Origin: Candidatus Iainarchaeum sp.
GTDB lineage: Archaea > Iainarchaeota > Iainarchaeia > Iainarchaeales > GCA-2688035
DNA: 64,000 nt
Direction: 5' to 3'
NCBI GenBank assembly: GCA_017610205.1
Contig: JAFCCL010000008.1
Location: 1-64,000, forward strand
Shown here: positions 10,611 to 57,403 of the stretch, one piece after another
Numbering within the stretch: position 1 is the stretch's first letter
How the letters are laid out: each line of letters opens with the position of its first letter
Translations under genes and position numbers: made by a program
Notes under the pieces: generated by a model
The model's database searches: none
The model's input: the letters and a program-made list of their open reading frames with translations, nothing else
What the model was told of the DNA's origin: nothing

Positions 10611-10703
10611 TGGTATAAGAAAAAGTGTTGGAAAAGCATTAAAAATGTTCATTTGACCAAAAAAATAATAAAAATTAATGGTTAAATTTGAATAAAGTCA
10701 ATT

Positions 10704-11030: not shown

Positions 11031-11040
11031 GTAATATCAC

Positions 11041-16512: not shown

Positions 16513-17403
16513 TTACAGCCTGTCCAGTGGACTTTTTACTTTCTTTAATTCTGCCGTGCTTACTCTTGTATATATTTGGGTAGTGCTTAAGTCGCTGTGC
16601 CCTAAAAGTTCCTGTATTTTTCTAATGTTTTCACCTGTTTCCAGAAGGTGGGTTGCGTAACTATGCCTCAAAGTATGTGGGGTAACCTTTTTTTGAATAC
16701 CTGCTTTTTCAGCTGCTTTTTTTACAACTCTTTGTACTGTGTCTGATGAAAGAGGTGTTCCATTTTTTTTACTAAAAACAAAAACACTTTTGATTTTTTT
16801 TCTTTTGAGATATTTTTTTATGTGTTTTAACCATTCTTTTGAGAGTATTATCATTCTGTCCTTATTTCCCTTTCCTCCTCTTATTGAGGCCATTTTTTCT
16901 TTAAAATCCAGATTCTCTGTTTTGAGTTTGACACACTCACTTACCCTGCATCCTGAACTGTAAAGGAATTCTACAATCAACCTGTCTCTTTTTGGAGGAG
17001 TTGCCTTTATCAATTTTTTTACTTCGTCTCTTCCAAGCACTGTTGGAAGTTTTGTAGCCTTTTTTGCAATCTTTATATCTTCAACTATTTTCTTACGCAT
17101 TATTTTGTGGAAAAAGAAATGCAAAGCCGCGTGAACTAATGCAAGCGTTGCATTACTTACATTTCCTTTTTCTTTTTTTTCTGCAAGGAACGCAACAATA
17201 TCATCGCGTTCACATTGTTCAATTGGTTTTTTTAAAAATCGGTCGAATTCATTAAAATAACACAAATACATTTTTACAGTTCTTGAACTGTAACCACTCA
17301 CTATCAACTCTTGTCTTAGTTTTTGAACCCAATTATCATTTCCAATTTCTTCCACGCTGCCCTTTTCATCTTTTACTTCAGAAGTGTTTGCAGTATAATC
17401 CAT
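16513..17403 (-). CDS. xerA: Tyrosine recombinase XerA
   Basis: A 296-residue XerA/XerC/D-type recombinase that resolves chromosome dimers at a dif site. The N-terminal SAM-like core-binding domain spans about 22-105. The catalytic set is complete: Arg153 in GCRVSE, Lys178 in GGKGNKDR, His243 and Arg246 in HTLRHSYATHLL, His269 in LLGHSDL and nucleophile Tyr278 in TQIYTRV. The first 20 residues are an acidic extension not typical of the family. An integron or phage integrase is less likely because there is no adjacent tRNA or element boundary. Confidence 0.92.
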   Translation of the reverse strand: MDYTANTSEVKDEKGSVEEIGNDNWVQKLRQELIVSGYSSRTVKMYLCYFNEFDRFLKKPIEQCERDDIVAFLAEKKEKGNVSNATLALVHAALHFFFHKIMRKKIVEDIKIAKKATKLPTVLGRDEVKKLIKATPPKRDRLIVEFLYSSGCRVSECVKLKTENLDFKEKMASIRGGKGNKDRMIILSKEWLKHIKKYLKRKKIKSVFVFSKKNGTPLSSDTVQRVVKKAAEKAGIQKKVTPHTLRHSYATHLLETGENIRKIQELLGHSDLSTTQIYTRVSTAELKKVKSPLDRL

Positions 17404-33897: not shown

Positions 33898-34009
33898 TCT
33901 GCAACCACTATTAACCAAAAGAGTCAAGGGGTTTAAAAACAATTTTGTGAGCAGGTTTCCGGTGAAAACTTATTTGTTTAAATAACTCTTTTTACACTAA
34001 TTGTCTGCA

Positions 34010-34357
34010 ATGCTTTCTAAAAAAAGAAGATCTGTAAGAAAAGCTACTGTTTTGGCTCGGTATGAACTGCTAAAAAAAAGGAAGGAAAAGAAACTCAGAA
34101 GCCAGATAAAGGAATTAAAGTCAAAAATTGTTCAAAATGAAATAATAAGAGACCTGCTCTCAAAAACAAGCGACTTGTTTAAAGAAGGTCAAATAGATCC
34201 AGTACTAGTGAAAGACCCTGCAATCAACGAAAGGATAAAATATTCCAAAAGAAAATTGCAGAAACTGGTCTTGGACAAAGGCGCACAACAAGCAAGGCAG
34301 GAAACTGCCCTCAAAAGAAAACAAAGGCAATTGGAAGTGCTTAAGAAGAAAAAGTGA
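34010..34357 (+). CDS. Basic coiled-coil protein
   Basis: A 115-residue protein, highly charged: KKRRSVRKATVLARYELLKKRKEKKLRSQIK and a long C-terminal helix KGAQQARQETALKRKQRQ. A central acidic segment DLFKEGQIDPVLVKDP breaks the coil. Reminiscent of ribosome-associated or nucleoid basic proteins; no family recognised. ATG 34010 is preferred to TTG 34001. Confidence 0.55.
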   Translation: MLSKKRRSVRKATVLARYELLKKRKEKKLRSQIKELKSKIVQNEIIRDLLSKTSDLFKEGQIDPVLVKDPAINERIKYSKRKLQKLVLDKGAQQARQETALKRKQRQLEVLKKKK

Positions 34358-34701
34358 TTATTTCTTGTAGACAAACAAATGAGTCTGCGTTTTTTTTTTT
34401 ACTTCAAAACCGTTTTGTTCGGCTGCCTTTTCAATAATTGACTCCTGCCGTTGTCTTCGTTTTCTTGACCTCTTACTTTTTACTTCAAAATGCTGTTGTT
34501 TTAGGGCAAACCTGAAAGAAATTGCTTTTTTTCAGTTCCTTCCCTCGCACTTATCAGGTCTGTGAATACCGTGTAAATTATTTTATGATTTTCTTGGCGG
34601 TAATATGACAACATATGCTGAGTAAAAGAAGAAAGCGCCTTAAAAGTCCTTTTCGCATGGTTCTTTTTCAATAACCTAAAAAACTGTTTTTTTGGCGACA
34701 A
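34358..34701 (-). pseudogene. Frameshifted basic protein gene
   Basis: The N-terminal frame reads SPKKQFFRLLKKNHAKRTFK, FTQHMLSYYRQENHKIIYTV and ends early as FLSGLP. If the run of seven A at about 34526-34532 had eight, translation would continue through AISFRFALKQQHFEVKSKRS and QESIIEKAAEQNGFEVKKKT to a TAA at 34358-34360. The two parts have matching composition, so one gene with an indel or sequencing error is the simplest view. No family recognised. The stop directly abuts the convergent gene. Confidence 0.55.
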
Positions 34702-34734
34702 GATTAAATTCTTTGAAACCCTTAATTACTTTGC

Positions 34735-35076
34735 ATGGTTCAAAGACCTACTGTGAAAAAGCCAAATTTAAGTCGCTTTACCTGCGAAGTACGGCCTTGT
34801 AGTATTGTTAAGCCGACTTTCATAACTATCAATCCAGAGGGAAGGCTTTTTATTCACAAACCTAATGGGGCGCCTTACACTGTAGAACTTGGAAAACACA
34901 AAGGAAAAAATGTTGCAGTTTACAACTTTCGCAAAGGGGTCACAATTGTAAATCCTGAGAACAGCAAAGTGCTTGATTTTATTCCATACGCAAAAATTCC
35001 TACTCCTCCCAGTACAGTAAATCCCTGGACTTATGCTAATCTCAAAAAGCAAAAACAACACGAAAAAACGCGTTAA
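34735..35076 (+). CDS. Hypothetical protein, 113 residues
   Basis: Beta-rich centre (TFITINPEGRLFIHKPNGAP, VAVYNFRKGVTIVNPE), two cysteines at TCEVRPCS and a lysine-rich tail. Unrecognised. Starts at ATG 34735 after an AT-rich region with a CCCTTAATTA box. Confidence 0.55.
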   Translation: MVQRPTVKKPNLSRFTCEVRPCSIVKPTFITINPEGRLFIHKPNGAPYTVELGKHKGKNVAVYNFRKGVTIVNPENSKVLDFIPYAKIPTPPSTVNPWTYANLKKQKQHEKTR

Positions 35077-35097
35077 AAAAAGGCATTTAAAGTAAAT

Positions 35098-35178
35098 GTC
35101 CACTCAAGAAAACTAACATCAAGAGCAGCAGGGAATGAATGGTGTGGGATTGGAGGACAGGAGGGAGAATCTGATTGA
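35098..35178 (+). pseudogene. Short remnant related to 40200-40354
   Basis: The frame containing HSRKLTSRAAGNEW ends at TGA near 35178. It resembles SRELISRAAWNEW upstream of the restriction gene at 40287-40330, with about 37 of 43 bases shared. Both lie immediately before island genes, so they look like two scars of one ancestral sequence. Confidence 0.35.
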
Positions 35179-35256
35179 AGAATAAGTAAAAAGGTTTTCT
35201 TGGGAAGATTCCTGAAAAAGGAAAGGAATAAAGAGATTTTCAGGGTGAAAATCATA

Positions 35257-37908
35257 ATGGATTTAGATAATGAAAAACAACAGATTATCGATTGTGAGGG
35301 CAATGTTCTTGTTACAGCCAATCCTGGTACTGGAAAGACCTTTTTGCTGGCCTGCAAGTATGTTGATTTGATTCAAAAGGGTCTGAAGTCTGAGGAAATC
35401 CTTTGTCTGACTTTTACCAACAAAGCAAAGTCTGAGATGGAGGGAGGTATTATTGAAATGCTAAAAAAGGAAGGCATTGAAATTGATTTAGCAAAATTGA
35501 ACGTTTTTACCTTTCATTCCTATGCTTTGGATGCTATTGGAGAACAAGGAATTATTTCGGCAAACCTTTTGCGTTACTCTATTTATCGTTATTTGAAGGG
35601 AAACAAGGTTCTCAATTATGGAGATGAATACTTGCTGAGTACCATCGTCCCAAAAATGGACAATTTATTACGGTACCTTAAAAACTTTGGAATTCTTCCA
35701 GAAAAAATTGATGTTGCTGCTTCAAAAGTATTTTTGGAGGACGGCAAAAAATTCAACAAAGAAGATCTTGAAGCTTTTCTGGAAGAATTTGTTAAAATCT
35801 TTCAAGATTATGAAAAAAAGAAAAAAGACCGTGGTTTAGACTATGCTGATCTTTTAATAGAGTTTTTGAACCTTCACAAAATTGAAAAATTCAAATACAC
35901 TCTTGTAGATGAACTACAGGACGTGAATACAATTGAAGCAGACCTTGTTTTGAATTCCACTGAAAAATTTATGGTTGTAGGGGACCAAAAACAAGCAATT
36001 TTTGGATTCCAAGGAGGTTCAATATTAAACTTTGAAAAATTTAAGAACTCAGAAAAGTTTGTTCTTTCAGCTAATAGGAGAAGTACTGATCAAATTCTTG
36101 ATTTTGCAAAAGAATTCTTTTCTTCAAAAACATCCAACGACAAATACAAGGAAGTACTTTCAAACCTTCACAGTTTTGAAAACAAAAAGGGTTCAAAGCC
36201 CAAAATAGTTGAAGTAAAAGAAAATCTTCAGGCGGAAACAGCTGCTTTGGTAAAAGAACTAATGAAAACAGAAACAAAAATAGCAGTAATTGCAAGAACA
36301 AACTCTCAAATAATGGCCCTTTCAAAAGAATTCACAAATCAGGGAATAGAGCATTCCTCAACACACTTTTCTGCCTCAATTGAAGCAAAACAAAACATTA
36401 TCTCTTTTATGAGAGGAATATTTACTTCACAAGTAGAGTATGTCAAAAACTCAATGTTTACTCCCTTCTTTCCAATTCCCTTACACACTGCTTTTGAACT
36501 AGCAGGCAAGAGAAAGCTTTCAATTGAAGACATTCTTGAAAAAGCACCGGAATTCAAAAAACTCCGCGAAAGCGTTTCAGGAACAGAAGAAATACATCTT
36601 CTATTTAAAGAAAAAATCATTCCACTATCAATAACTTACGGCAAAGAATACCTTTTTGCCGCACTAAGTTTACAAGACGCCTGCTCTGAAGCACTGCGAC
36701 TGCTTGAAGAAAAAACACTTGAAGCATTTTCAGCATACCTTGAATCATCCGATCTTTTAGCACAAGAATCAGATACAGAACAAAAAGTTGTGTTAACCTC
36801 AATTCACAAATCAAAAGGAAAACAATTTGATACGGTTGTATACGTTCCAAAAAAGACAAAAAATACCTCCAGCTTTCAGGATACCGTAGTTGAAGCAATC
36901 CTCAAATCACACGGAATCAACGCGGTGGAAGAACTTGAAGAGGAAAGTCTGAGAGCAGACTTTGTTGCCATAACTCGTGCAAAAAAACAACTCTTTGTTT
37001 TAACTGACAAGCTCTCAAATTACCTTAATACTTTTGCTGAAACAGTAGAGCCCTCCAAAACACCCTCTGCCGCACAAGAATTTGACGAAGTAGAAAAACG
37101 TGCCTACAACCTTTTCCTAAACCACGAATATGACAAAGCAAAGGAATTGCTTGAAGAACACAAACCATGGCTAAAAGACTTTGTAAAAAAACATTTTGAA
37201 GGTCTTGATAGGGTTTCCTTTTCTGCCTTAAAAGATTCTCCTTACAATTATTTTCATGACCGAATTCTAAACATTCAAAAGCCTTCTCCTGCTCTAAACA
37301 TTGGAAGTAAAGTGCACAACATTGCTGAAAAAATGCTTAAAGGAGCCGAGTTTCAGGTTTCACCTGAAGTAAAGCCCTTTGTTGATAATGTTCAAACAGT
37401 GATTGCGGACATCCAAAAAAATTATCCTGATGTTGTTGATGCTGAGCTCAAAATAGATTTGCCTCTTTCCAAAATAATTGAAACAGATGACGACATTCGC
37501 TTCAGGGGAGTAATTGACGGTATCTTCAAAAAAGGAGATTCTTTTCTTTTAGTGGATTGGAAAACAGACATTGACACAAACAGGGCTTCAGAACACAGGC
37601 AGCAGCTTGCAGTTTACCAAAAAGTCTTTTCTCTCTCCAAAAACATTCCTCTTGCAAACATCAAGGTCGCAATAGGGTTTGTCGGAATCCGTAACAGAAT
37701 CAACGACGGCGCAATCAACCCAGAACTGGACACAAGACAGCCAGGTCCAACATCATTCAACACAATCTCAAAAAAACTCCAAAAATTCTTGGAATGGAAA
37801 AACAACACAGAAACATTCTTTGAAGAACTAAAAGAACAAAAAGTAGACAATGTGCTGTGGAGGAGTTTGGTGGAGGAATATGGAAGAGAAGGAGACGAAA
37901 GGGGTTAG
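35257..37908 (+). CDS. UvrD/RecB-type helicase with C-terminal nuclease
   Basis: An 883-residue SF1 helicase fused to a PD-(D/E)XK nuclease, like AddA/RecB. Helicase motifs: Walker A TANPGTGKT, motif Ia LTFTNKAKSEM, Walker B VDELQDVN, motif III VGDQKQAIFGFQG, motif IV SANRRSTDQI and motif VI FVAITRAKKQLFVL. The nuclease near the C-terminus shows FRGVIDGIF, LLVDWKTD and QQLAVYQKVF. It should unwind and degrade DNA ends in recombination or defence. ATG 35257 follows GGGTGA; an upstream TTG adds a doubtful head. Confidence 0.9.
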   Translation: MDLDNEKQQIIDCEGNVLVTANPGTGKTFLLACKYVDLIQKGLKSEEILCLTFTNKAKSEMEGGIIEMLKKEGIEIDLAKLNVFTFHSYALDAIGEQGIISANLLRYSIYRYLKGNKVLNYGDEYLLSTIVPKMDNLLRYLKNFGILPEKIDVAASKVFLEDGKKFNKEDLEAFLEEFVKIFQDYEKKKKDRGLDYADLLIEFLNLHKIEKFKYTLVDELQDVNTIEADLVLNSTEKFMVVGDQKQAIFGFQGGSILNFEKFKNSEKFVLSANRRSTDQILDFAKEFFSSKTSNDKYKEVLSNLHSFENKKGSKPKIVEVKENLQAETAALVKELMKTETKIAVIARTNSQIMALSKEFTNQGIEHSSTHFSASIEAKQNIISFMRGIFTSQVEYVKNSMFTPFFPIPLHTAFELAGKRKLSIEDILEKAPEFKKLRESVSGTEEIHLLFKEKIIPLSITYGKEYLFAALSLQDACSEALRLLEEKTLEAFSAYLESSDLLAQESDTEQKVVLTSIHKSKGKQFDTVVYVPKKTKNTSSFQDTVVEAILKSHGINAVEELEEESLRADFVAITRAKKQLFVLTDKLSNYLNTFAETVEPSKTPSAAQEFDEVEKRAYNLFLNHEYDKAKELLEEHKPWLKDFVKKHFEGLDRVSFSALKDSPYNYFHDRILNIQKPSPALNIGSKVHNIAEKMLKGAEFQVSPEVKPFVDNVQTVIADIQKNYPDVVDAELKIDLPLSKIIETDDDIRFRGVIDGIFKKGDSFLLVDWKTDIDTNRASEHRQQLAVYQKVFSLSKNIPLANIKVAIGFVGIRNRINDGAINPELDTRQPGPTSFNTISKKLQKFLEWKNNTETFFEELKEQKVDNVLWRSLVEEYGREGDERG

Positions 37909-37976
37909 ATCGGTGATAGCTTTTGTGTAAGTACTCGGTTCTGTGTAAGTATTCGCAAGGTTGTGTCAATTTAATG

Positions 37977-38867
37977 CTAGGTTTTTATTTTTTTGGGGTA
38001 AGGTTTTAACCAAGAATACAATTTGAATTCAGAACTCTGTGACCCCCAAGGTTTACACAAACTTTTCTCTAAAATAATCTTTTTACCTCTTGATTTAACA
38101 TATTGAATAATTTTCGGAAGTTTTTCTTTCTGCAATTCAATAATTGTTCCATTCATTAGATTAGTAAATACTGCTGGAATATCATTAACCAAGAATTGTC
38201 CTTCGCCAAAGTGTCCACGAATTATCAATTTTGGCTTTATCAAACTTACTCTAGGTAAGTTTTTCTGCTCACAATGAGTTATAACAACATCAACTTTACT
38301 TTGAAATAAGTCTATAAAAGAATTAATTGTTCGAAGATAATGACTCTCTTTAAATCCAAGTCCTAAAAAAGTAGTGCCAGCTATATTAGTAATTTTTCCA
38401 GAAATTTCTTCGCAGTTTGCAATTTCATTTATTTTTCTAACAATATAATCTCCTTCAAAATCACTGTCGTGATCTCCCTTAACTACTAGAACTTTTGATT
38501 TTTTTCCCGCGTATTTCAAAAAATCATAAAATTTGTCAACATGCATTCTTTTCCGATTCTCTAAGAACGCGTTGGTATGTTCATATTTTTTAATTAGACC
38601 TTGTACAGAATCTAAGAAATCACTCATTATACTATTCCTACTTCCGCTATATGTGCCATTCGCCGCTTGGGTAATGTTCATTTTCTTCATTAGAGTTTTT
38701 TTTTCTTTCTGAAATTCAGGTATTTCTATAACTGCTTTCTTCCAAAAAGATGCAAATCCATCTGAAGTTAAATCGCCAGCTAAAGCAACAACATCTGGTT
38801 TAATTTCATCTAGCAAATCTTTTTGTTTATCCCATTCTACAACATCTGAAAATACGAGAATCTTCAT
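37977..38867 (-). CDS. Calcineurin-like metallophosphoesterase
   Basis: A 296-residue phosphoesterase: GDLTSDGF, KGDHDSD, ITHCEQKNLPR and IRGHFGEGQF are the metal-binding GD, GNHD-like and GH motifs. The first motif is degenerate: the usual DxH is SDVVE, so one metal site is altered. The protein lacks the cap of SbcD/Mre11, so a nuclease role is only a guess from its position between two DNA nuclease genes. Possible substrates are nucleotides or DNA. Confidence 0.8.
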   Translation of the reverse strand: MKILVFSDVVEWDKQKDLLDEIKPDVVALAGDLTSDGFASFWKKAVIEIPEFQKEKKTLMKKMNITQAANGTYSGSRNSIMSDFLDSVQGLIKKYEHTNAFLENRKRMHVDKFYDFLKYAGKKSKVLVVKGDHDSDFEGDYIVRKINEIANCEEISGKITNIAGTTFLGLGFKESHYLRTINSFIDLFQSKVDVVITHCEQKNLPRVSLIKPKLIIRGHFGEGQFLVNDIPAVFTNLMNGTIIELQKEKLPKIIQYVKSRGKKIILEKSLCKPWGSQSSEFKLYSWLKPYPKKIKT

Positions 38868-39004
38868 AGGATATATCTTTCCAAACAGGCTGTTTACAAT
38901 TTTGCATTTTTTTCGTATTAATTATTATTAGCTCTTTCTTGGCTTTGATATAAAACAATATTAAATGAAAAGACTGTAAAAAGCTTTTGGAGATAAAATT
39001 TATT

Positions 39005-40198
39005 ATGACAATCTATTCCCATTCCCGCCTTGGCTCTTTTGAGTCCTGTCCAAAAAAGTTTTACTTTTCTTATATTGAAAAGCCCAGAATTGAGTACAGG
39101 GAGGGTGTTGAGGCTTTTATGGGCAAGCGTGTTCATGAAACCCTTGAAAAGCTTTATTCTGACCTTAGGGTAACAAAGTTTAATTCTTTGAAGGATTTGC
39201 TTTCCTTTTACGAAAAAGACTGGAAAAAGAATTGGACTGATTCAATCATAATAGTAAAAAAGGGATTGAAGCAAAAGCACTATTTTGACCTTGGCAAAAA
39301 ATGTGTTGAACAATATTATGCAAGGCACAAGCCTTTTGATGCAGATAAAACAATTGCCTGTGAGAAAAGGGTTGTTTTTTCTCTTGACAAAGGGGGAAAG
39401 TACAAAATGCAGGGCTATATTGACAGGCTAACAGAAGAGTCTCCAGGCCATTACGTTATTCACGACTATAAGACCAATGGAGCCTTGCCAATGCAGGACT
39501 ATTTTGACCAGGACAGACAGCTTGCATTGTATAGTATTGCTGTTTACAACGATTTCAAAGACTGTGAGGATGTAAACCTTTGCTGGCATTATCTTGCCTT
39601 TGACAAAGACCTTTTTAGCAAGAGAACAGAAAACCAGCTTGAAGGATTGAAAAAAGAAACGATTGCATTAATTCAAACAATTGAAAAAGCGGAGGAAAAA
39701 GGCGAGTTTCCAACAAAGGAGTCAAGATTGTGCGATTGGTGCTCTTACCAAGAACTCTGTCCTGCAAAAAAACACGGAGCAAAGGTTGAAAAGCTTCCTG
39801 TGAAAAAATTCAAAAAAGACGAAGGAGTAAAGCTGGTAAACAAATTTGTTAAACTCAGCGGAAAACTGAAAGAAACAGAAATAGAACTTGACGAACTAAA
39901 AGAAAACGTTTTTGCCTATGCAGAACAATTTGGATTGGAAAAGATTATTGGAAAAAAAGCAGCACTCAAAATAAGCAAAACATATAGCTACTCGTTTGCA
40001 GGACTAGGAAAAGAAGAAAAAGAAGAATTGATAGGAATTCTAAAAAAGGAAAAATTGCTCAAAAAGTTTTTGACGTTTGACACAAGGGCGTTGGGAAGTG
40101 CGGTGGTGAAAGAAGAATTAGGGAAAGGGATAATTAAGGAAGTTAAAGAGTTTGGGAAGGAAAAGGAAAGTAAAGGTGTTAGGTTGGTGGGGAAATAG
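39005..40198 (+). CDS. RecB/Cas4-like exonuclease with Fe-S cluster
   Basis: A 397-residue PD-(D/E)XK protein. Active-site segments: MQGYIDRL, YVIHDYKTNG and RQLALYSIAV. Four cysteines, in SCPKKFYFSY and LCDWCSYQELCPA, would hold a 4Fe-4S cluster as in AddB and Cas4. The last 120 residues are helical and charged. Such nucleases trim 5' or 3' DNA ends with a helicase partner, probably the UvrD-like gene nearby. ATG 39005 is preceded by GGAG. Confidence 0.88.
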   Translation: MTIYSHSRLGSFESCPKKFYFSYIEKPRIEYREGVEAFMGKRVHETLEKLYSDLRVTKFNSLKDLLSFYEKDWKKNWTDSIIIVKKGLKQKHYFDLGKKCVEQYYARHKPFDADKTIACEKRVVFSLDKGGKYKMQGYIDRLTEESPGHYVIHDYKTNGALPMQDYFDQDRQLALYSIAVYNDFKDCEDVNLCWHYLAFDKDLFSKRTENQLEGLKKETIALIQTIEKAEEKGEFPTKESRLCDWCSYQELCPAKKHGAKVEKLPVKKFKKDEGVKLVNKFVKLSGKLKETEIELDELKENVFAYAEQFGLEKIIGKKAALKISKTYSYSFAGLGKEEKEELIGILKKEKLLKKFLTFDTRALGSAVVKEELGKGIIKEVKEFGKEKESKGVRLVGK

Positions 40199-40199
40199 G

Positions 40200-40354
40200 T
40201 TTTAAACTTCCTCAAACAATTCTTCTCCACCCTGTTCCTAGTATGCCATATCACATACTTCCTAGGAAAACACAACAACATTCAATCAAGAGAACTAATA
40301 TCAAGAGCAGCATGGAATGAATGGGTTGATTTTGTTCTAATTGGACCTTTGTAG
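40200..40354 (+). pseudogene. Remnant of a hydrophobic protein
   Basis: An open frame without a start codon begins just after the preceding nuclease stop and ends at TAG 40352. It reads LKQFFSTLFLVCHITYFLG then SRELISRAAWNEWVDFVLI. The second half is related to the fragment at 35098. It looks like the 3' end of a membrane protein gene that lost its front. Confidence 0.35.
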
Positions 40355-40386
40355 GTTAATTAAATGTTTTGTATGGAAATTAATTC

Positions 40387-41112
40387 ATGCTTAGCTATAA
40401 GGATTTTGTTAAAAGGTTGAATGAAATCAAATCTCGTGGTTGGATTAAAACACATCGCGCAGGTCCAACCGGAATCGGAAAAACGCTTGAGGACTTACTT
40501 GATATTGATGAAAACAACATTGCTGGTCCAGACCATAAACATTTTGAGCTAAAATCAGCAAGAAAAAGCAGCCAGAGTATGTTAACACTCTTTACTAAAG
40601 CTCCTTTGCCAAAAAAGGCAAATGCGGATTTACTGAGTAAATTTGGTTATGTTTCAGCTAAGGGCAACAACAAAAAGGAGATTCATACAACCGTTAACTG
40701 TCTTGAATTCAATAAACTTAAAGGACTGCCAGGTTTTAAGATTGAGGTGCGAGAAGATGAAGATAAAATGGTTCTTATTGATACAAGAAACAGTGTTCTT
40801 GGATACTGGGATAAACTTACTTTGAAAAGTGCTTTTGTGAAAAAATATCCTGCATTAATGTATGTCAAAGCAGATAGTCGAGGAACAGATAAAAACGAGG
40901 AATTTTTTTTCAATGAAGCGTATATGCTGAAGGGTTTTGATTTTGATAATTTTTTGGACCTGGTTGAAAAAGGAACAATAAAAGTTGATGTTAGAATAGG
41001 ACAGTATAGTAGTGGAAAAAGCAAAGGTAAGACACACGACCACGGAACAGGATTCAGAATAAAGCCTGAAAAGTTGGACTTGTGCTTTGGACAGAGGAAA
41101 AAAATAATATAA
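40387..41112 (+). CDS. MvaI/BcnI-like restriction endonuclease
   Basis: A 241-residue type II endonuclease resembling the MvaI/BcnI family, monomeric MutH-like enzymes that cut CCWGG or CCSGG. The N-terminal signature RAGPTGIGKTLEDLL, ENNIAGPDHKHFELKSARK is the family's active-site region (the D in GPD and ELK lysine). The C-terminal KPEKLDLCFGQRKKII is typical. Two methyltransferases downstream would protect host DNA. Specificity cannot be read directly. Confidence 0.88.
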   Translation: MLSYKDFVKRLNEIKSRGWIKTHRAGPTGIGKTLEDLLDIDENNIAGPDHKHFELKSARKSSQSMLTLFTKAPLPKKANADLLSKFGYVSAKGNNKKEIHTTVNCLEFNKLKGLPGFKIEVREDEDKMVLIDTRNSVLGYWDKLTLKSAFVKKYPALMYVKADSRGTDKNEEFFFNEAYMLKGFDFDNFLDLVEKGTIKVDVRIGQYSSGKSKGKTHDHGTGFRIKPEKLDLCFGQRKKII

Positions 41113-41179
41113 ACCATTTTTACGACAATGGCCAAAGTTTTTTGTTGATTAAAAAAGATTTGTTTTGGCTACTTTTTTA

Positions 41180-41878
41180 ATGAGTGAGAACTATAGGAAT
41201 GTAGATTGGCTTAGTAGTGTGTGGAGAATAACCACTGAAAATCCATCTATTCAAAAGTTTAAATTAGACATATCTGCTGCGCATCCTGCTGCGTTCCCTG
41301 AAGAATTAGCCTATCGGTTGATTTATTTATACAGCAAACCAGAAGATTTTGTTCTAGACCCTTTCTGTGGCATTGGCACAACCAACTTTATTGCTTTGAG
41401 CTTGAATAGAAAAACAATTGGTTATGATATTGAATCCAAATACATTGCAATTGCACAAAAACGATGTAAAGAACAAGCAAGACTTTTTTGTAAATCATCT
41501 GAAAGCATGAATGAATTAGCACCTAATAGTATTCAACTCTGCATTACAAGTCCGCCTTATTTAAATGCCAGAATTTATTCTACCAATTCAAATAATATTG
41601 GAAACATGGCTAATCCAATACCTTCATTAAAACAAATTTTTCAAGAAGTATACAGAGTGCTAAAACCTAAAGGGTATTTTTGTCTGAATGTAGCAAATAT
41701 TGCTGAGCACGGCTATCTCAAAACTTTTCCTTTTGACCTGATTAATCTATGCATGGATGCAGGGTTCAAGTTTAGAAGTAGTGTCATATGGGACAAAGGA
41801 ATAAAAATAAAGGAATGGAATCTTAGGTATAATGAAGTAGCAGAAAATCACGAGTATGTTTGGATATTTAAAAAGTAA
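41180..41878 (+). CDS. DNA (cytosine-N4)-type methyltransferase
   Basis: A 232-residue methyltransferase of the beta class: TSPPYLNARIYS (motif IV) precedes no target insert, and LDPFCGIGTTNFIALSLNRKTIGYDIE is the SAM-binding FxGxG region (motif I). SPPY often marks N4-cytosine methylation. It starts 67 bases after the restriction gene, so it most likely belongs to the same R-M unit. ATG 41180 is preferred to TTG 41165. Confidence 0.85.
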   Translation: MSENYRNVDWLSSVWRITTENPSIQKFKLDISAAHPAAFPEELAYRLIYLYSKPEDFVLDPFCGIGTTNFIALSLNRKTIGYDIESKYIAIAQKRCKEQARLFCKSSESMNELAPNSIQLCITSPPYLNARIYSTNSNNIGNMANPIPSLKQIFQEVYRVLKPKGYFCLNVANIAEHGYLKTFPFDLINLCMDAGFKFRSSVIWDKGIKIKEWNLRYNEVAENHEYVWIFKK

Positions 41879-41916
41879 AAAAAACAGATTCTGGTTATTT
41901 TGTGCTATTTTTAGTA

Positions 41917-42102
41917 TTAATCTAGAACAGGGCAAGTTCTGCATTGTTTACAATTTTTATCTGGTTTTTCAGGACAATCGGGATACAAACCTTTGCAATT
42001 TGGAAATCCCGCCGATTTTGCGCTTTCAATTGTTTTCTCAGCATCTGTTTTAATCGTGTTGTAAATTTTTCTCCGTTCTCTTTCGCTACTATAATAAGTC
42101 AT
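41917..42102 (-). CDS. Small cysteine-rich protein
   Basis: A 61-residue protein: YSSERERRKIYNTIKTDAEKT then CKGLYPDCPEKPDKNCKQCRTCPVL. The CxxxxxxC/CxxCxxC pattern suggests one metal site. It follows the methyltransferase at 42109 by 6 bases on the same strand, so it is its operon partner. Confidence 0.55.
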   Translation of the reverse strand: MTYYSSERERRKIYNTIKTDAEKTIESAKSAGFPNCKGLYPDCPEKPDKNCKQCRTCPVLD

Positions 42103-42108
42103 ACATTT

Positions 42109-43344
42109 TCACCGTTTCAATAGTACAATATGTTCCTCATTCATTGTTGAAGAAAGAACCCCTGGTTTGTTTGTTGGGCTATTAACCCTTGGCATTCTTT
42201 TTGAAGGGATGTGTCTAATACTTGTCTTGTCATGGTTGAAGTTGAATTCTTTAAATAATTCTATAATAATTTTGTCCATTGGTATTTTTACTCCTTTGAC
42301 AGTTCTATTGCCCACCACAAAACACATTCTTGAATTGTCTTTCATAATACGATTTATTTCTTCAGCTGCTTTATAGAAATCTGAAAAAAAACCTAATACA
42401 TCTCTTGCTCTTTTTTCATCTTCTTTTGATATTGTTGAAATTGTTGTATCAAGTATTTTTGAGGGTAAAGAATGTGTGAGTACTTTTGGAGCTATTCCGC
42501 CCATCATTACATTATCCATGCGCTTTGCTTTTTTCTCATCACATCCAAGCCATTGTGAACTTAATCTACTGAATTGCCCATAAGCTACTGTGGTTCTACT
42601 GTCTCCGTAAGGTGGGGATGTTACTAGTAAATCAGTTGAAGATGTCCAAATTTTTGTTTTTTTGGTAAGGTCTGCTTCTATTATATTCACAGAGGGGCTT
42701 TTGTTTTTTTGTAAGGCATTGTATAAACATTCCATTGCTTGTCGATTTTTCTCAAAGACTGTTTGAAAAATTAGTTTGGCATCAGGAGCATAATTTTTCA
42801 GTTTTTCTTCTTTAATACGGTAAAGTTTGAATTCACCGCCTCTGGTATTGCTTGCCTTTCTAACAGTTTCACTAAAGCAAACTAAAAAGAAATCTCGTAT
42901 TTTCTTATCCTTAATTTCATCAATTGCTTGCTTTATTGCTGTTAATGCTAATTTTGCTTCTTCTTTGAACCAAAAATCAATATTAAAAAAAACCGGTGGT
43001 TGAATTTTTTTCTCATTACTGAGGTGATAAATTTTGGGTTTTAAGTTCATCCACGTCTCAAAAAGACTTGAAGGTTTTACTGGTGTTGTTTTGACTTTAC
43101 TAATAAGTGTGGCTAAAGGATTTATATCGACACCATAACTTTTAATTCCTGCTAACTTAAATTCCAATAGAACACTTCCTGAACCACAAAATGGATCAAG
43201 ACCAACTTTGGCACTAGTACTATTTTCTTTAATTAGTCTTTTTGCTACTTGCGGAATCATCATTGCGGGATAAGTGTGTATGCCATGAGTGTAATATTTT
43301 GTATTTGCTTTAGCAAAATCCCAACTATGATCAATTTTTTTCAT
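42109..43344 (-). CDS. Second DNA methyltransferase (SPPY-type)
   Basis: A 411-residue enzyme: GLDPFCGSGSVLLEFKLAG plus GVDINPLATLIS (SAM binding) and LLVTSPPYGDSRTTVAYGQF (motif IV). The order places the SAM motif first and SPPY near the middle, with a 130-residue region between that should recognise DNA. It is convergent with the first methyltransferase of the R-M system. BcnI-type systems use two N4-cytosine methyltransferases for one restriction enzyme, which fits this arrangement. Confidence 0.85.
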   Translation of the reverse strand: MKKIDHSWDFAKANTKYYTHGIHTYPAMMIPQVAKRLIKENSTSAKVGLDPFCGSGSVLLEFKLAGIKSYGVDINPLATLISKVKTTPVKPSSLFETWMNLKPKIYHLSNEKKIQPPVFFNIDFWFKEEAKLALTAIKQAIDEIKDKKIRDFFLVCFSETVRKASNTRGGEFKLYRIKEEKLKNYAPDAKLIFQTVFEKNRQAMECLYNALQKNKSPSVNIIEADLTKKTKIWTSSTDLLVTSPPYGDSRTTVAYGQFSRLSSQWLGCDEKKAKRMDNVMMGGIAPKVLTHSLPSKILDTTISTISKEDEKRARDVLGFFSDFYKAAEEINRIMKDNSRMCFVVGNRTVKGVKIPMDKIIIELFKEFNFNHDKTSIRHIPSKRMPRVNSPTNKPGVLSSTMNEEHIVLLKR

Positions 43345-43417
43345 AGAAACACACCTATCAATATAATTAACTTCAGATTAAATGTTTTTTGGAAGAGGGG
43401 GTTTCCGCTAAACATTT

Positions 43418-43579
43418 TTAAACCACTCCCATCCCGATCATCATTCCAACCATCAACACCACCGCATACTTCCCTACCTTATAGGCCCAGTCATTCCAGC
43501 CGTACATATAGAAAACTGCTACATAACCGACTGCTAACCAAGAAAAAAGATGAAGCCAGGGGAAAAGGTCGGAAGGCAT
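43418..43579 (-). CDS. Small membrane protein (53 residues)
   Basis: Reading on the minus strand from ATG 43579 to TAA 43418: WLHLFSWLAVGYVAVFYMYG then YKVGKYAVVLMVGMMIGMG, two hydrophobic helices joined by WNDWAYK. The composition is coding-like. It sits between the methyltransferase and the RHH gene. No family recognised. Confidence 0.45.
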   Translation of the reverse strand: MPSDLFPWLHLFSWLAVGYVAVFYMYGWNDWAYKVGKYAVVLMVGMMIGMGVV

Positions 43580-43655
43580 TTTGTGTCACTTCATATAATA
43601 TGAATAATATGTATTATAAAAGTTCTTTTAAACCTATGCATAGGATATGCATTGT

Positions 43656-43784
43656 ATGGGTGAAGGAAAATACATCAGAAAAACAATCACGATTAAATCA
43701 GCGCAGGAAAAGTATATTCAAGATAAATCAATAAACCTAAGCAGGTTTGTTCAGAAAAAGATTGATGAGGAAAGGAAAGGTTGA
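43656..43784 (+). CDS. Ribbon-helix-helix regulator (42 residues)
   Basis: A short protein: RKTITIKSAQEKYIQDKSINLSRFVQKKIDEE shows the beta-strand TITIK and two helices of MetJ/Arc-type ribbon-helix-helix repressors. TTTTAAAC at 43626-43633 is about 27 bases before the ATG. It lies 7 bases before the ParB-like gene, so it probably regulates the operon. Confidence 0.7.
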   Translation: MGEGKYIRKTITIKSAQEKYIQDKSINLSRFVQKKIDEERKG

Positions 43785-43791
43785 TGGATGT

Positions 43792-45117
43792 ATGGTTACA
43801 ACTAAGATAATCTTTTTAACAGATCTTAATGTAAACACGGAAAATTCGCGCTTTGACCCATTAACAAGTCAGAAAGAAGCTATTGATAAAATGATTGAGA
43901 ATCAAGGCGATAAACTTTATAATCTGGCAAAGGACATCGCGCAATATGGTCTCAATCCAAATGTAAGGGCACAAGTCACCGCTATTGATAAAGATGCGAC
44001 GAAGTTTATTGTTCTTGAAGGGAATAGAAGAATTGTCACATTAAAACTTATGGCAAATCCAGATATAATAGATACTCCAGTAAGAAGCACACTAAAAAAG
44101 AAGTTTCAGAATCTTCACAATAAGATTAAAGACAATTTGATAGACAAAGTAGAATGTAACTATTATGCTGACCCCAAAGATGCAGAACATTGGATTGGCA
44201 TTAAACATGGTTATGGCCCACAAGGAGTAAGTACTGTTAAATGGGATGCTTGGCAAAAAACTCGCTATGAAGAGTCTATTGGTGGAAAATCTAAGATTGT
44301 TTTTCAGACTATTAAACTGCTAAAAGATTCTCCCTATATCTCTAAAAAAATAAAAAATGATATCCCAAATATAAAATTAACAAACTTGCATAGATTAGTT
44401 TCAGATCCTTCTGTGAGAGATTTTTTAGGTTTAGAATATAGTAAAGGTATTCTCAAATCAAAAATTGATGAGAAAGAGTTAATGAAAGGATTAGCAAAAG
44501 TTGTAGAAGATTGCGCAAATCCAAAATTTACAGTAAATGATATATACACTAAAAAAATTCGGAAAGATTATATTGATAGTTTTCCTGCTGAAAGTACTCC
44601 TAATAAAGATAAAAAAATTGATGGTAAGTCAACTTCTGCAAAATCAAAAAAAACTAGAAAAAAAGCGCCCTATAGAACAAAATTAATTCCAGGCTCTTGT
44701 AAACTGTCTGTTAGTAACCCCAAAATTAATTCTATTTATGATGAATTACAAAAATTAAATATTGAGACTTACCAAAACGCTGTTTCGGTATTATTTAGAG
44801 TCTTTATTGAATTGAGCCTGGACACTTTCCTAGAAAATAAAAAAATGATAGAGGGTGTATCAGCAGCAAAAGAAAGATTGACACTTAACAAAAAGCTCAT
44901 TAAAGTATTAGGTTATCTGACTGATAAGGGTTTTATAGATGCCACTATTAGTAAAGGCATTAGAGTAGCGGTGAGCAATAAGGATCATTTGTTAGGAATT
45001 GACACTTGGCATGCTTATGTCCACAGCAACCAATTTTCAGCAACCCCAAAAGATTTAATTACCACCTGGGGCAACATCCAAATTTTTGTAGAAAAAGTTT
45101 GGGAAAACATTAAGTGA
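43792..45117 (+). CDS. ParB-like domain protein with helical C-terminus
   Basis: A 441-residue protein. Residues about 30-110 contain LAKDIAQYGLNPNVRAQVTA and FIVLEGNRRIVTLKLM, the signature of the ParB/Srx (sulfiredoxin-like) fold with its G-x-R-R motif. Middle region to about 290 is helical and lysine-rich. The C-terminal 140 residues (VLFRVFIELSLDTFLENKKM, LLGIDTWHAYVHSNQFSATP, TTWGNIQIFVEKVWENI) form a helical domain resembling those of defence-linked ParB proteins, possibly HEPN-like. ParB-fold domains can bind CTP or act as nucleases. It directly precedes a D12 methyltransferase with a 4-base gap. Start 43792 (MVTTKIIFLTDL) follows GGTTGATGG. Confidence 0.75.
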   Translation: MVTTKIIFLTDLNVNTENSRFDPLTSQKEAIDKMIENQGDKLYNLAKDIAQYGLNPNVRAQVTAIDKDATKFIVLEGNRRIVTLKLMANPDIIDTPVRSTLKKKFQNLHNKIKDNLIDKVECNYYADPKDAEHWIGIKHGYGPQGVSTVKWDAWQKTRYEESIGGKSKIVFQTIKLLKDSPYISKKIKNDIPNIKLTNLHRLVSDPSVRDFLGLEYSKGILKSKIDEKELMKGLAKVVEDCANPKFTVNDIYTKKIRKDYIDSFPAESTPNKDKKIDGKSTSAKSKKTRKKAPYRTKLIPGSCKLSVSNPKINSIYDELQKLNIETYQNAVSVLFRVFIELSLDTFLENKKMIEGVSAAKERLTLNKKLIKVLGYLTDKGFIDATISKGIRVAVSNKDHLLGIDTWHAYVHSNQFSATPKDLITTWGNIQIFVEKVWENIK

Positions 45118-45121
45118 TTTT

Positions 45122-45970
45122 ATGGGTGTTTATTCTCCGTTAAGATATCCGGGTGGAAAGGGAAAAATTTCGCCTTATTTTAAACAAATTATAAAGGATA
45201 ATTTGTTGTTTGATGGGGTTTATGTTGAGCCCTATGCAGGTGGCGCGGCTGTTGCTCTTTCGTTGCTTTTTGATGAATATGTTTCTAAAATAATAATTAA
45301 TGACATTGATCGTTCAATCTATGCTTTTTGGTATTCAATTCTAAATGAAACCGAGAAGTTTTGTAAACTTATACAAAAAACACCCGTAACTATTGGTGTT
45401 TGGAAGAAACAGAAAAAAATACAAACTTTTAAGAAAAAATGTGGTCTGCTCGAACTTGGATTTTCAACTTTTTTTTTAAATCGAACTAATCGCTCAGGAA
45501 TTTTAAACGCAGGTGTTATTGGCGGATTAAAACAAGCGGGTGAATGGAAAATTAATGCGCGATATAATAAAAAAGAACTGATAAGGCGTATTAAAAAAAT
45601 TTCTTTGTATAAAAACCAAATCCAATTATATAATTATGATGCTTCAAAATTAGTTAAATTGCTTTGTAAAACTCTTCCAAAGAACACTTTATTTTATTTT
45701 GACCCGCCTTACTATATCAAAGGTAAAAATCTTTATCTAAATCATTATGCCTATAATGACCACAAAGAAATTGCTAAGGATATCCATGCTTTAAAAAACC
45801 AAAAATGGATACTAACCTATGACAATGTAAAACCAATTAAAGAATTATATCTAGCTTATCGACAAAAAAAATACAACCTACACTATAGTGCGGGAAAGTC
45901 AGAAACTGGACGAGAATTGATGATTTTTTCAAATAATTTATCCATCACAAAGAATCCAATATTAGCTTGA
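45122..45970 (+). CDS. DNA adenine methyltransferase (D12 class)
   Basis: A 282-residue enzyme of the Dam/D12 family: SPLRYPGGKGKISPYF (motif X), VEPYAGGAAVALSLL (motif I), LFYFDPPYYIKGKNLYLNHY (motif IV DPPY) and WILTYDN. It methylates adenine N6, commonly in GATC or a similar site. No endonuclease is adjacent, so it works either alone or with the ParB-like protein. Only 4 bases separate it from that gene, which implies coupling. Confidence 0.92.
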   Translation: MGVYSPLRYPGGKGKISPYFKQIIKDNLLFDGVYVEPYAGGAAVALSLLFDEYVSKIIINDIDRSIYAFWYSILNETEKFCKLIQKTPVTIGVWKKQKKIQTFKKKCGLLELGFSTFFLNRTNRSGILNAGVIGGLKQAGEWKINARYNKKELIRRIKKISLYKNQIQLYNYDASKLVKLLCKTLPKNTLFYFDPPYYIKGKNLYLNHYAYNDHKEIAKDIHALKNQKWILTYDNVKPIKELYLAYRQKKYNLHYSAGKSETGRELMIFSNNLSITKNPILA

Positions 45971-46020
45971 CCTTGGTTTTCTAACAGATTATGACTTTTC
46001 TTCTTAGACAACAACCCAAA

Positions 46021-46791
46021 TCACGTTGCTTCTATATCAACAAAAAATTCTGCAAAGACTGCAGATTGTGAAGTTGATATTTTTCCTGAAACATTACAAT
46101 CATTTGTAACATCGAGATTTTGTTTTTCTATTTCAAAATGAAACGCTTTAAATTCACCACTTTTCAGTAGCTTCCCTTCAACACCCTTTATATATTGATT
46201 GCCAGTAGGTTCTGAAAAATCTCCTTTTATGTTCCCACCAAGACAATTTAAGTAAACATCAAAATTTGGTTTCCTTGCGGGAATTTGCAATATTAATGGC
46301 TGTTGCCCAGTGTTATAAACACGAATTATACCCTCAACTTTGTCGTTTACAGATGAGGTAATAAGTTTTCCATCTTTAGTTAAATCTCGCTCAAACACTG
46401 CTTCTAATCGCGGATGTAAATAAGCTGTTTCTTCAGTTACTTTACTTAAGTCATTAGTAGCCAAAACTAAGCCTATAGTTGCAACTATTAAACCAATAGC
46501 AAAAATCACTTGAAAAATGCTAATAATAGTCTGCTTAGATGACTGCTTGAGCTGTTTCTCTAAAATCCTTCGATGTATTTCAAAACGATAAACTTCAGCA
46601 TCTAATCCACTTTTGTTAGCAAGTGAATAAACTTGTAATAGTTCTTTATCACTTAGTTCAATAGCAGATTTAGCTAACAAATCAGCATACTCTAACCCTA
46701 TAATACCACCTTTTTCAACTACTGGCTTTTTCTTTTTGTTAATATCGGCTTTCTTTGCGAAATGCTTTTGCCAAGGTTCTGAATGTGCCAT
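46021..46791 (-). CDS. Membrane protein with cytoplasmic helix region
   Basis: A 256-residue protein with one central membrane helix (IISIFQVIFAIGLIVATIGLVLA, residues about 88-110). The N-terminal half is charged and helical (ELSDKELLQVYSLANKSG, EIHRRILEKQLKQSS); the C-terminal half is a beta-rich extracytoplasmic domain (VEGIIRVYNTGQQPLILQIP). It starts the other strand after the methyltransferase operon. Function unknown. Confidence 0.6.
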   Translation of the reverse strand: MAHSEPWQKHFAKKADINKKKKPVVEKGGIIGLEYADLLAKSAIELSDKELLQVYSLANKSGLDAEVYRFEIHRRILEKQLKQSSKQTIISIFQVIFAIGLIVATIGLVLATNDLSKVTEETAYLHPRLEAVFERDLTKDGKLITSSVNDKVEGIIRVYNTGQQPLILQIPARKPNFDVYLNCLGGNIKGDFSEPTGNQYIKGVEGKLLKSGEFKAFHFEIEKQNLDVTNDCNVSGKISTSQSAVFAEFFVDIEAT

Positions 46792-46889
46792 CTCAAATCA
46801 CTTATTTTATCCTATGAAATTCCTTTAAATTTGTCTTTTTCTCAAATCCCGACCCGCGCCCAATTCTCTGGGTCTGTGTTAAGGTAATC

Positions 46890-47159
46890 TCACTTAAACA
46901 TTCTTTTCAGCTTTTGCCACAGCGAAGGCTTGTCAATTTTTGCAAAGAATTCTTTGCGTTCTTTTTCTCTTTGTAGTTTGAATTCATCACCATAACCTTC
47001 ATAAGGAACAGGTTCAGGTTTGTTAGGCTTTTTTTCTTTCTTAAACTTACTGCCTATTTTGGCGTGTCTTCCAAACTTTTTGGTAAGTAGTTTGTCTTCT
47101 TCTTCGTCTGGGTCGTCAACAAAATCGAAACGTCCTCCAGTTATTCTACGGCTACCCAT
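46890..47159 (-). CDS. Charged hypothetical protein, 89 residues
   Basis: Starts MGSRRITGGRFDFVDDPDEE, middle FGRHAKIGSKFKKEKKPNKP, ends KIDKPSLWQKLKRMFK. The C-terminal amphipathic helix could contact a membrane. The ATG at 47159 follows the ribosome-binding site GGGAAGTGA, which overlaps the stop of the next upstream gene. The two are cotranscribed. Confidence 0.55.
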   Translation of the reverse strand: MGSRRITGGRFDFVDDPDEEEDKLLTKKFGRHAKIGSKFKKEKKPNKPEPVPYEGYGDEFKLQREKERKEFFAKIDKPSLWQKLKRMFK

Positions 47160-47164
47160 CCAAA

Positions 47165-47356
47165 TCACTTCCCTATTTCTTCAAATCTCCTCATGGCTTC
47201 TAAAAGAAGCACTATTGCTAAAGAACCAATTGTTATGCCTGCAACAAGATAAGAATCGAGAGATATTTGTGCTGTTATAATCAGAAGTGCTTCAACACCT
47301 AAGCCCAAACCAATTGCTCCAAAGATAGCAAGTCTAATACTTTTAATTTTATTCAT
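47165..47356 (-). CDS. Small membrane protein, two helices
   Basis: A 63-residue protein with helices LAIFGAIGLGLGVEALLIITA and LVAGITIGSLAIVLLLEAM and short polar ends. The stop lies 5 bases before the start of the following 89-residue gene, so they may form one complex. Family unknown. Confidence 0.6.
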   Translation of the reverse strand: MNKIKSIRLAIFGAIGLGLGVEALLIITAQISLDSYLVAGITIGSLAIVLLLEAMRRFEEIGK

Positions 47357-47450
47357 TTAATTGTTATCTCCTTGACTAATTTTGCTACAAAATCCCTTTA
47401 AATTTGCGTTTTCCCAAAAACCCAGTCCATACCCTACATACCAAATTTTA

Positions 47451-48341
47451 TTAATAAACACCTAATACAGTTTGCTTCTCCGAATTGATTATACTTTTAG
47501 GAAAACAATTAATTCGGCGATATAAACTATAGGTGTTGTTACTCAATCGTTTAAATCGATCTTCTAGCCCTTTTTTAGAAATATACCTTACTGATTTTAG
47601 CAAGACCATATTTTTTTGAAGAATGTCTTCAACAAAAGGTATTTTGTTAACTATTTGAGGCAGTATTTCGCGATAATCTCCCACCATTGCGCAATCATTT
47701 AGAAATCTATAGTGGCATTTTTCTCTAATTCGTCTTAATTCGTTTAACTGAGTCAAATCTACACTTGGTAATTCTACTCCGTTTTTTGTTAGTCCCTCAA
47801 AAGTAAAGAATAGGTTTTGGTGCCAACGACCTGTTTTACCTACTTTAAGATCGTCATTTATAAAACTCTTTTTCTTTTTTAATTCCCAGTCTTCTTTTTG
47901 GCGAACAAGAAAATAATCTTCATTTTCGGTGTCTCCCCTTAAGGAAATGCAGCCAAATAACGAGAACATGGAAATTAGAGAAGTTATTGCCGCATAATAA
48001 AGTGTTGGCCCACTTGTCCCAATTGCATAATTTAGAAGAAATTTTTTCCCAATCCGGTCTCTCGAACAAGAAGCATTGAGAATTTCTAAACTTCCCCAAA
48101 ACTTATTTATTGCTTCATTCAATTGGTGATTACTTCTAGAAAATGAAAATACTGTAAAAAATTCCTGATTCGCTTTTGAGAAATTTTCTGTGGTTTTATT
48201 CTCGGAATCAAATGACAATATTCGTCCTACTCCTCTATTTATGCTTGAAGAACTGCCACGTTCCCAGTCCCAATAGTTCTGGTGCTCTAACGACTCAAAA
48301 AGTTTCTTTATTTCTTCGACTTTTTTAGGGTATACTGGCAT
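47451..48341 (-). CDS. Hypothetical protein, 296 residues
   Basis: An aromatic- and serine-rich protein, with HQNYWDWERGSSSSINRGVG, an internal hydrophobic stretch TLYYAAITSLISMFSLFGCI, LNELRRIREKCHYRFLND and a helical C-terminus. The HYRFL segment and basic helix could be nucleic-acid-facing. Low G+C and the position beside defence genes hint at accessory content. Family unrecognised. Confidence 0.55.
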   Translation of the reverse strand: MPVYPKKVEEIKKLFESLEHQNYWDWERGSSSSINRGVGRILSFDSENKTTENFSKANQEFFTVFSFSRSNHQLNEAINKFWGSLEILNASCSRDRIGKKFLLNYAIGTSGPTLYYAAITSLISMFSLFGCISLRGDTENEDYFLVRQKEDWELKKKKSFINDDLKVGKTGRWHQNLFFTFEGLTKNGVELPSVDLTQLNELRRIREKCHYRFLNDCAMVGDYREILPQIVNKIPFVEDILQKNMVLLKSVRYISKKGLEDRFKRLSNNTYSLYRRINCFPKSIINSEKQTVLGVY

Positions 48342-48524
48342 ATAGTATTCCTCTCTAGAAAAGTTTAAAGTTGCTTGGAAAAAATATTTAGAGTTATTGA
48401 GTTGCGAGGGACGCCTTATCTTCTATTAACATCACCGGCCAATGTGCCAATTCCAATTTTATTTTTTTTATTTTTTTTGTTTGCAGTTAATCACTTTTAA
48501 TACTTTTCAGGGGTTAATTTTTTC

Positions 48525-55673: not shown

Positions 55674-55913
55674 TTGGCTTCTACTACTATAAGGCTTGAA
55701 ACCAGTACAAAGAAAGGGCTGGAATCCCTCAAGGAACACAGGAGGGAAACTTTTGATGAAGTGATTGAAAAGCTCTTGGCTCTTGTTCCGGAAGGAGATG
55801 AGGAAGGAAAGTACTCTGATGAGTTCAGGGCAGGGCTTTTGGAAGCCCACTTTGACGCAAAGCAGGGGCAATTTGTTTCCCTCAGCAAGCTTAAGAAGGA
55901 CATTGGGCTTTGA
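55674..55913 (+). CDS. RelB/VapB-like antitoxin
   Basis: A 79-residue protein: STTIRLETSTKKGLESLKEHRRETFDEVIEKLL is an RHH-like N-terminal DNA-binding segment (TTIRLE), followed by an acidic linker EGDEEGKYSDE and a toxin-binding tail GQFVSLSKLKKDIGL. TTG 55674 is taken as start because GGTGA lies 8 bases upstream; TTG 55668 is closer to the site. Overlaps/abuts the toxin gene, so it is the antitoxin of that module. Probably autoregulates through the palindrome at 55645. Confidence 0.8.
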   Translation: MASTTIRLETSTKKGLESLKEHRRETFDEVIEKLLALVPEGDEEGKYSDEFRAGLLEAHFDAKQGQFVSLSKLKKDIGL

Positions 55914-55915
55914 CC

Positions 55916-56170
55916 ATGTGGCAGTTGGCTTTTACAAGAAGGGCTGAAAAGGACTTTCTTCGCCTGGAAAAAGAGGTTTCAAAGAGAATTATAGCAAAGC
56001 TTGAAAAAAGCCTTAAAGACCCAAAAAAACACTTTTCTCAGGTTAAGGACACAGACTACCACGAGCTTCTGGCAGGCGACTACAGGGTGCTTGTAATCCT
56101 GCAACAGTCAAAGCAAGTCATTGACGTAAGAAGGGTTGGGCACAGAAGAAACATTTACAAAAACATTTAA
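55916..56170 (+). CDS. RelE/ParE-family toxin
   Basis: An 84-residue RelE-like toxin: MWQLAFTRRAEKDFLRLEKEVSKRI, then YHELLAGDYRVLVILQQSKQVIDVRRVGHRRNIYKNI. The Arg/Lys/His residues of the C-terminal strands (YRVLVI, VRRVGHRRNIYK) match mRNA-cleaving RelE. ATG 55916 follows the antitoxin stop by 3 bases. Confidence 0.85.
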   Translation: MWQLAFTRRAEKDFLRLEKEVSKRIIAKLEKSLKDPKKHFSQVKDTDYHELLAGDYRVLVILQQSKQVIDVRRVGHRRNIYKNI

Positions 56171-56865: not shown

Positions 56866-57183
56866 TCACTGGCTTTTTAGCCTATGCAGCCTTTTTTCAA
56901 GTTCGTTGTAAAGTTCTTGTTTTTTTTTCTTGTTTAGTTTGAATAGTTGTTTCTCAATTGCTTTTTCTGTGAGGGTAAAAATATAATTTGTCTTTATTAC
57001 GCTATCTTTTATTGCTCCGTCTTTTTTTGTAAGAGCAATACCCTTCATTCTAACATTGCTTGTTATGCCTGCAACAACAACGTTTCCGAGTTCCTCAAAA
57101 AGGACTACTGCCGGCCTCTTCTTTATTTCAAAGGTGTCAGTGAACTGTGCCTTTGCAAGCACAACGTTTCCTGGTTCAAGCAT
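56866..57183 (-). CDS. PemK/MazF-family toxin
   Basis: A 105-residue endoribonuclease-like toxin: EPGNVVLAKAQFTDTFEIKKRPAVVLFEELGNVVVAGITSN shows the PemK beta barrel (D/F loop, KRPAVV). Lys/Arg-rich C-terminal helix KAIEKQLFKLNKKKKQEL follows. ATG 57183 overlaps the antitoxin stop by 8 bases, so expression is coupled and the longer upstream frame is rejected. Confidence 0.88.
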   Translation of the reverse strand: MLEPGNVVLAKAQFTDTFEIKKRPAVVLFEELGNVVVAGITSNVRMKGIALTKKDGAIKDSVIKTNYIFTLTEKAIEKQLFKLNKKKKQELYNELEKRLHRLKSQ

Positions 57184-57403
57184 TTTCCCAGTCCTCATCT
57201 TCCTTATTGTCCCAAAGCTCAGCCATTTTTTCCTGCTGAATCTTATGCAGAAACTCGTCATACTGGTTTTTCATCTTGCAGGCCTTGTAAACCCTTGTAA
57301 GCTCAAGAATCAGCTCAGAGTAGGTCTGCCTTGGATACTGTTTGACTTCCTTCAACTCTGCAAGAGCCGGTTTCTTAACCTGAATAGTAGTAACATCAGA
57401 CAT
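57176..57403 (-). CDS. Antitoxin of the PemK module
   Basis: A 75-residue protein: SDVTTIQVKKPALAELKEVKQYPRQTYSELILELTRVY is an RHH-like DNA-binding head; the acidic tail with DNKEDEDWENA binds the toxin. ATG 57403 is 29-40 bases after a 12-bp palindrome, giving an autoregulated promoter. The stop codon overlaps the toxin start. Confidence 0.8.
   Translation of the reverse strand: MSDVTTIQVKKPALAELKEVKQYPRQTYSELILELTRVYKACKMKNQYDEFLHKIQQEKMAELWDNKEDEDWENA

Follow-up and report, generated by a model that had tools for sequence, protein, structure and literature searches.

What does an operon that joins a ParB-like protein to an adenine methyltransferase do in an apparently archaeal genome? 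The question is raised by positions 43656-45970 of the window (the whole 64,000-nucleotide stretch of contig JAFCCL010000008.1 analysed here), where three + strand ORFs encode an RHH-like protein of 42 aa, a ParB-like protein of 441 aa and a D12 methyltransferase of 282 aa. The intergenic gaps are 7 bases between the first two genes and 4 bases between the last two, in agreement with the coordinates and spacing given by the first-pass annotation, and we infer from this spacing that the three genes would be carried on a single transcript. The features of the operon are the following.

43656-43784, + strand: 42-aa RHH-like leader gene, apparently not a PD-λ-5 component (translation; sequence pattern)
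43792-45117, + strand: PD-λ-5 A, 441 aa (PADLOC PDLC03998 and PDLC04008; AF2 model; PDB fold matches)
44020-44031, + strand: GNRR (G77-R80), the ParB P-motif GxxR (invariant in 80/80 and 48/48 sequences)
44662-45114, + strand: putative C-terminal HEPN-like domain of A (E318, L319, R336 and H411 invariant)
45122-45970, + strand: PD-λ-5 B, D12-class N6-adenine DNA methyltransferase, 282 aa (PF02086; PDLC04018; motifs)

The layout had been described as not a standard one, a view that must be revised because the combination is already known as PD-λ-5 (PADLOC; PMC9519451). The ParB-like protein is matched as PD-Lambda-5_A by PDLC03998 with E=1.7e-142, and a second PADLOC model, PDLC04008, spans its residues 1-437 with E=3.1e-100. 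The methyltransferase is matched as PD-Lambda-5_B by PDLC04018 (E=7.4e-123). Its earlier assignment as a D12 adenine methyltransferase is upheld by an above-cut-off PF02086 match (4.3e-18) and by the intact motifs EPYAGG and DPPY, the latter present in 73/73 relatives, in which the motif I glycines are also invariant. On the strength of these profile matches, 43792-45970 is a PD-λ-5 system, a known kind of system rather than a new one. Profile scans returned no Pfam or NCBIfam name for A, and a PDB sequence search with A returned no match.

PD-λ-5 was identified in E. coli through a functional selection (Vassallo 2022, PMC9519451), where broad phage protection was demonstrated for the E. coli system only. 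Its reported origin is a P2-like prophage (PMC10482375). An E. coli homolog of the A family was found in 22 of 5426 genomes at near search, and in the one genome examined the member is flanked by the replication endonuclease and portal genes of a P2-like prophage, which supports the family match because this is the origin reported for PD-λ-5. The window operon and E. coli PD-λ-5 have in common both protein families, their order and tight linkage, the invariant residues and a mobile or island setting. They differ in the apparently archaeal host and the extra 42-aa RHH leader gene of the former, and window A is ~27% identical overall to an E. coli A protein, with 32% in the best segment.

The linkage of A and B was followed across relatives, which were recovered with alignment queries, as single-protein pattern scans of the genome and viral collections found none. 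Among 80 genome relatives, B lies within 200 bases of A in 76 and is adjacent in two more, where it overlaps A or follows a broken A; in another (L152) it is 3 kb away, and in the last (L150) the contig stops at A. Thus B adjoins A in 78/79 genomic loci with room to tell, and the corresponding count for viral loci is about 72/74. In the 80 viral-contig relatives, B is directly downstream of A except at contig ends and in L087 and L021, and in a minority the two genes are convergent, with B encoded on the other strand. The pairwise distances of A and B co-vary with r=0.75, a value reached in 0/1000 label shuffles (Mantel), and the linkage is not due to chance. A lack of conserved linkage had been named beforehand as evidence against the proposal, and what is found is a nearly universal one. 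A occurs without a nearby B in L087 and L012, which suggests that A may not be strictly toxic alone and counts against the defence model set out below. The L152 locus (5920-11422, Caulobacter) encodes two ParB-like proteins and a protein that by eye resembles GIY-YIG (T5orf172), and its D12 methyltransferase gene is reversed.

The closest relatives are a Micrarchaeota protein (49%), those of Pontibacter (47%) and further Bacteroidota (44-45%), and one from Aenigmatarchaeota (44%), with additional archaeal relatives in Methanoregula, Methanoregulaceae and Parvarchaeota. Archaeal and bacterial rows are mixed inside supported groups of the tree, a pattern that fits repeated transfer, though bins can hold foreign contigs. 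The host of the window is presumed to be archaeal from its gene content and the company of its relatives; an rRNA search of the bin gave no match. Among 86 other genomes of the same phylum no convincing copy was found, one of them giving a weak partial match with E=2e-4. The operon is situated in a variable island of roughly 14-16 kb, in which a separate restriction system is also present.

33950-48440 (approximate), no strand: variable genomic island with the operon (content absent at the site in sibling genomes)
40387-41112, + strand: MvaI/BcnI-family type II restriction endonuclease of a separate system in the island (PF15515, 1.4e-54)
41165-41878, + strand: N6_N4-type DNA methyltransferase, probable MvaI/BcnI partner (PF01555, 1.2e-37)
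42109-43344, - strand: second type II DNA methyltransferase of the restriction-modification cluster (PADLOC PDLC03322, E=4e-140)

In the sibling genome G004, gene order is kept at 22.6-32.5 and 48.4-51.9 kb of the window while the contents between differ, and in the sibling G003 the 33.4-33.9 kb gene has its homolog next to the 48.5 kb helicase gene, with only a small ORF separating the two. GC content is low across much of 38-48 kb. Taken together, the mixed tree, the island and the absence of a convincing copy in the 86 phylum genomes point to horizontal transfer. The first-pass annotation had stated that no restriction enzyme stands beside the methyltransferase; this is true of the operon itself, while the MvaI/BcnI system lies 2.5 kb upstream inside the same island. 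The D12 enzyme was considered as the partner of that nuclease and rejected: almost everywhere it goes with A, and the nuclease has methyltransferases of its own next to it. Elsewhere in the island, 35200-40195 may hold another defence module: it encodes a UvrD helicase fused to a PD-(D/E)XK nuclease (901 aa), a metallophosphoesterase and a second, unfused PD-(D/E)XK nuclease. At its right end (46021-48341) are minus-strand genes of 256, 92, 63 and 296 aa, three of which were scanned and matched no Pfam family above threshold. Other genes of the window include a phage-type tyrosine integrase (16516-17403, PF00589) and ParE-like and PemK/MazF-like toxin genes (55910-56167 and 56869-57261).

The predicted architecture of A comprises a ParB/Srx-fold domain (about 1-125), a middle helical domain (about 126-262), a linker and a helical HEPN-like domain (about 292-441). 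The AF2 model, built on 48 sequences, has a mean pLDDT of 91.2, and its closest matches in the PDB are ParB, Noc, KorB and Srx (sulfiredoxin), with probability up to 1.0 and a best E of 1.4e-3. Both the ParB fold proposed earlier and the G-x-x-R motif looked for with it are borne out, the latter as G77-N78-R79-R80, invariant in 80/80 sequences. H139, G145, W151, R201, E318, L319, R336 and H411 are likewise invariant among the 80 sequences, and E340 is kept in 79/80. A shares its fold and the GxxR P-motif with ParB/Noc/KorB/Srx proteins (PDB 6sdk, 7nfu, 8qa9) and differs from them in its C-terminal domain and in the lack of a nearby ParA gene, as neither the operon nor the neighbouring genes that were scanned include one. 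In Vibrio phage ValB1MD-2 (L190 1943-4382), A is encoded by two ORFs, a ParB part and a C-terminal part, whose start and stop overlap, and B follows them.

The C-terminal domain is modelled as six helices with a pLDDT of 88. HEPN structures are among its top fold matches, which include 2q00 (TM 0.53/0.64), 2hsb (0.51/0.59), 1wwp, 8xdj and 1jog, all with E>=2 (best 2.0), values that fall short of significance. Marginal profile matches to DUF4145 (6/72 A members, best E 0.0086) and DUF5677 (5/72, best E 0.0011) were also obtained. The model and these matches weakly suggest a HEPN-like domain, and to this extent the earlier proposal of a HEPN-like C-terminus stands. The canonical Rx4-6H motif sought with it is absent: H411 is invariant and the polar residue after the arginine position (N or H) is kept, but the arginine is replaced by L/F/M/W. 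The alignment has no conserved R at -5 to -7 of H411, the invariant R336 being elsewhere. HEPN families that keep H without R have been described (PMC3710099), and PD-Lambda-5 is listed among HEPN-domain systems (PMC11811056). HEPN-ParB fusions, and a HEPN family (MAE_28990) in operons with ParB and a DNA methylase, were reported by Anantharaman (2013, PMC3710099). At the level of domains, they share the combination and the methylase link with the window operon; window A lacks the Rx4-6H arginine.

The operon would most likely provide a methylation-guarded abortive or restrictive defence with A as the effector. The earlier suggestion of a defence operon with the ParB-like protein as probable effector and the methyltransferase as probable guard is likely to be right, and we consider it rather probable that this PD-λ-5 copy arrived by horizontal transfer and acts in this manner. 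We infer that B marks self; absence of the mark would be recognised by the nucleotide-controlled ParB/Srx domain of A, with the C-terminal domain as its acting part. B would methylate an adenine within a short motif of the host's DNA, and A, binding DNA and nucleotide via the ParB/Srx domain, would stay inactive on methylated self DNA. Unmethylated invading DNA would then switch the state of A, and its HEPN-like C-terminal domain would act as the effector. This domain would most likely be an RNase in which R336/E340/E318 and H411 form the site in place of the classical Rx4-6H, and it would end the infection through death or stalling of the cell. The RHH leader would probably set expression and would not be needed for the mechanism.

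Of the alternatives, a minimal restriction-modification system survives best, as an unlikely but serious candidate. Here B would again mark self, the ParB/Srx domain of A would nick or cut unmethylated DNA, and the C-terminus would dimerise or hold B. This proposal draws on the DNA nicking by ParB/Srx superfamily proteins cited in PMC12839542, on the invariant GxxR beside a C-terminal domain that lacks the classical HEPN motif, and on the enrichment of type II restriction-modification and PD-λ-5 in one hot spot of Pseudomonas islands (PMC12629846). Like type II restriction-modification, the operon has a D12 adenine methyltransferase beside a putative effector, but A has no recognisable restriction endonuclease domain, neither Pfam nor PADLOC giving such a match. 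Moreover, R336, H411 and E318 are as invariant as the ParB motif, which is beyond the expectation for a passive scaffold.

The RHH-like ORF could instead be an antitoxin or dedicated repressor of A, making a three-gene unit. RHH proteins are common antitoxins, and the gene lies only 7 bases from A with an upstream region in common. Its sequence pattern fits the RHH assignment made earlier, which found no match in Pfam or NCBIfam. No matching RHH gene was found next to any of the relatives looked at, among them the closest archaeal ones, and the one close homolog, of 43 aa and 74% identical, in another genus of the same family (L186 1492-1623) heads an unrelated gene, whose start it overlaps (ATGA). 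For these reasons the RHH gene was rejected as a conserved third component, contrary to the first-pass annotation, and a three-gene unit appears very improbable; the gene is probably a lineage-specific portable leader or regulator. Least credible of all is a module for epigenetic regulation or DNA partition with no role in defence: a ParB-type switch with a methyltransferase would suit it and ParB-fold proteins serve many roles (PMC12704722), but the locus is patchy, horizontally moved, prophage- and island-borne and adjoins restriction-modification genes, no ParA gene is seen there, and the E. coli system protects against phage (PMC9519451).

Returning to the methylation-guarded defence, the B clade also occurs next to AAA/OLD-like ATPases, in place of A, in elements of Citrobacter, Streptococcus, Acinetobacter and Fusobacterium, which supports the view that B marks self for more than one kind of effector. 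PD-λ-5_B-like D12 methyltransferases, 48-51% identical to window B, directly follow OLD/AriA-like AAA ATPases in L188 1634-3421, L189 1711-3432, L192 1697-3415 and L193 1839-3498, and may form with them an unnamed sister system. On the viral contig L021 (5004-8760), an AAA ATPase gene stands between A and B. The idea that the ATPase replaces the C-terminal domain there was rejected, since the C-terminal end is present in another frame; judged from the reading frames, A is split or frameshifted, with the ATPase gene added. A broader proposal, which we regard as doubtful, is that B belongs to a general 'self-mark' module with interchangeable effectors, either an OLD/AriA-like ATPase or a ParB-HEPN protein, the latter having a rebuilt HEPN site (R336/E340/E318 and H411) switched by nucleotide and DNA methylation, in archaea and bacteria.

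The range of PD-λ-5, a system known from prophages and islands of bacteria, is thereby extended to several archaeal lineages. The deep alignment provides G77-R80, H139, W151, R201, E318, R336, E340, H411 and DPPY as targets for mutation, and the interest of the locus to specialists lies in this range extension together with a testable list of residues. For the family, the findings indicate that methylation-guarded effectors may be swappable, which brings the unsolved mechanism of PD-λ-5 within reach of experiment.
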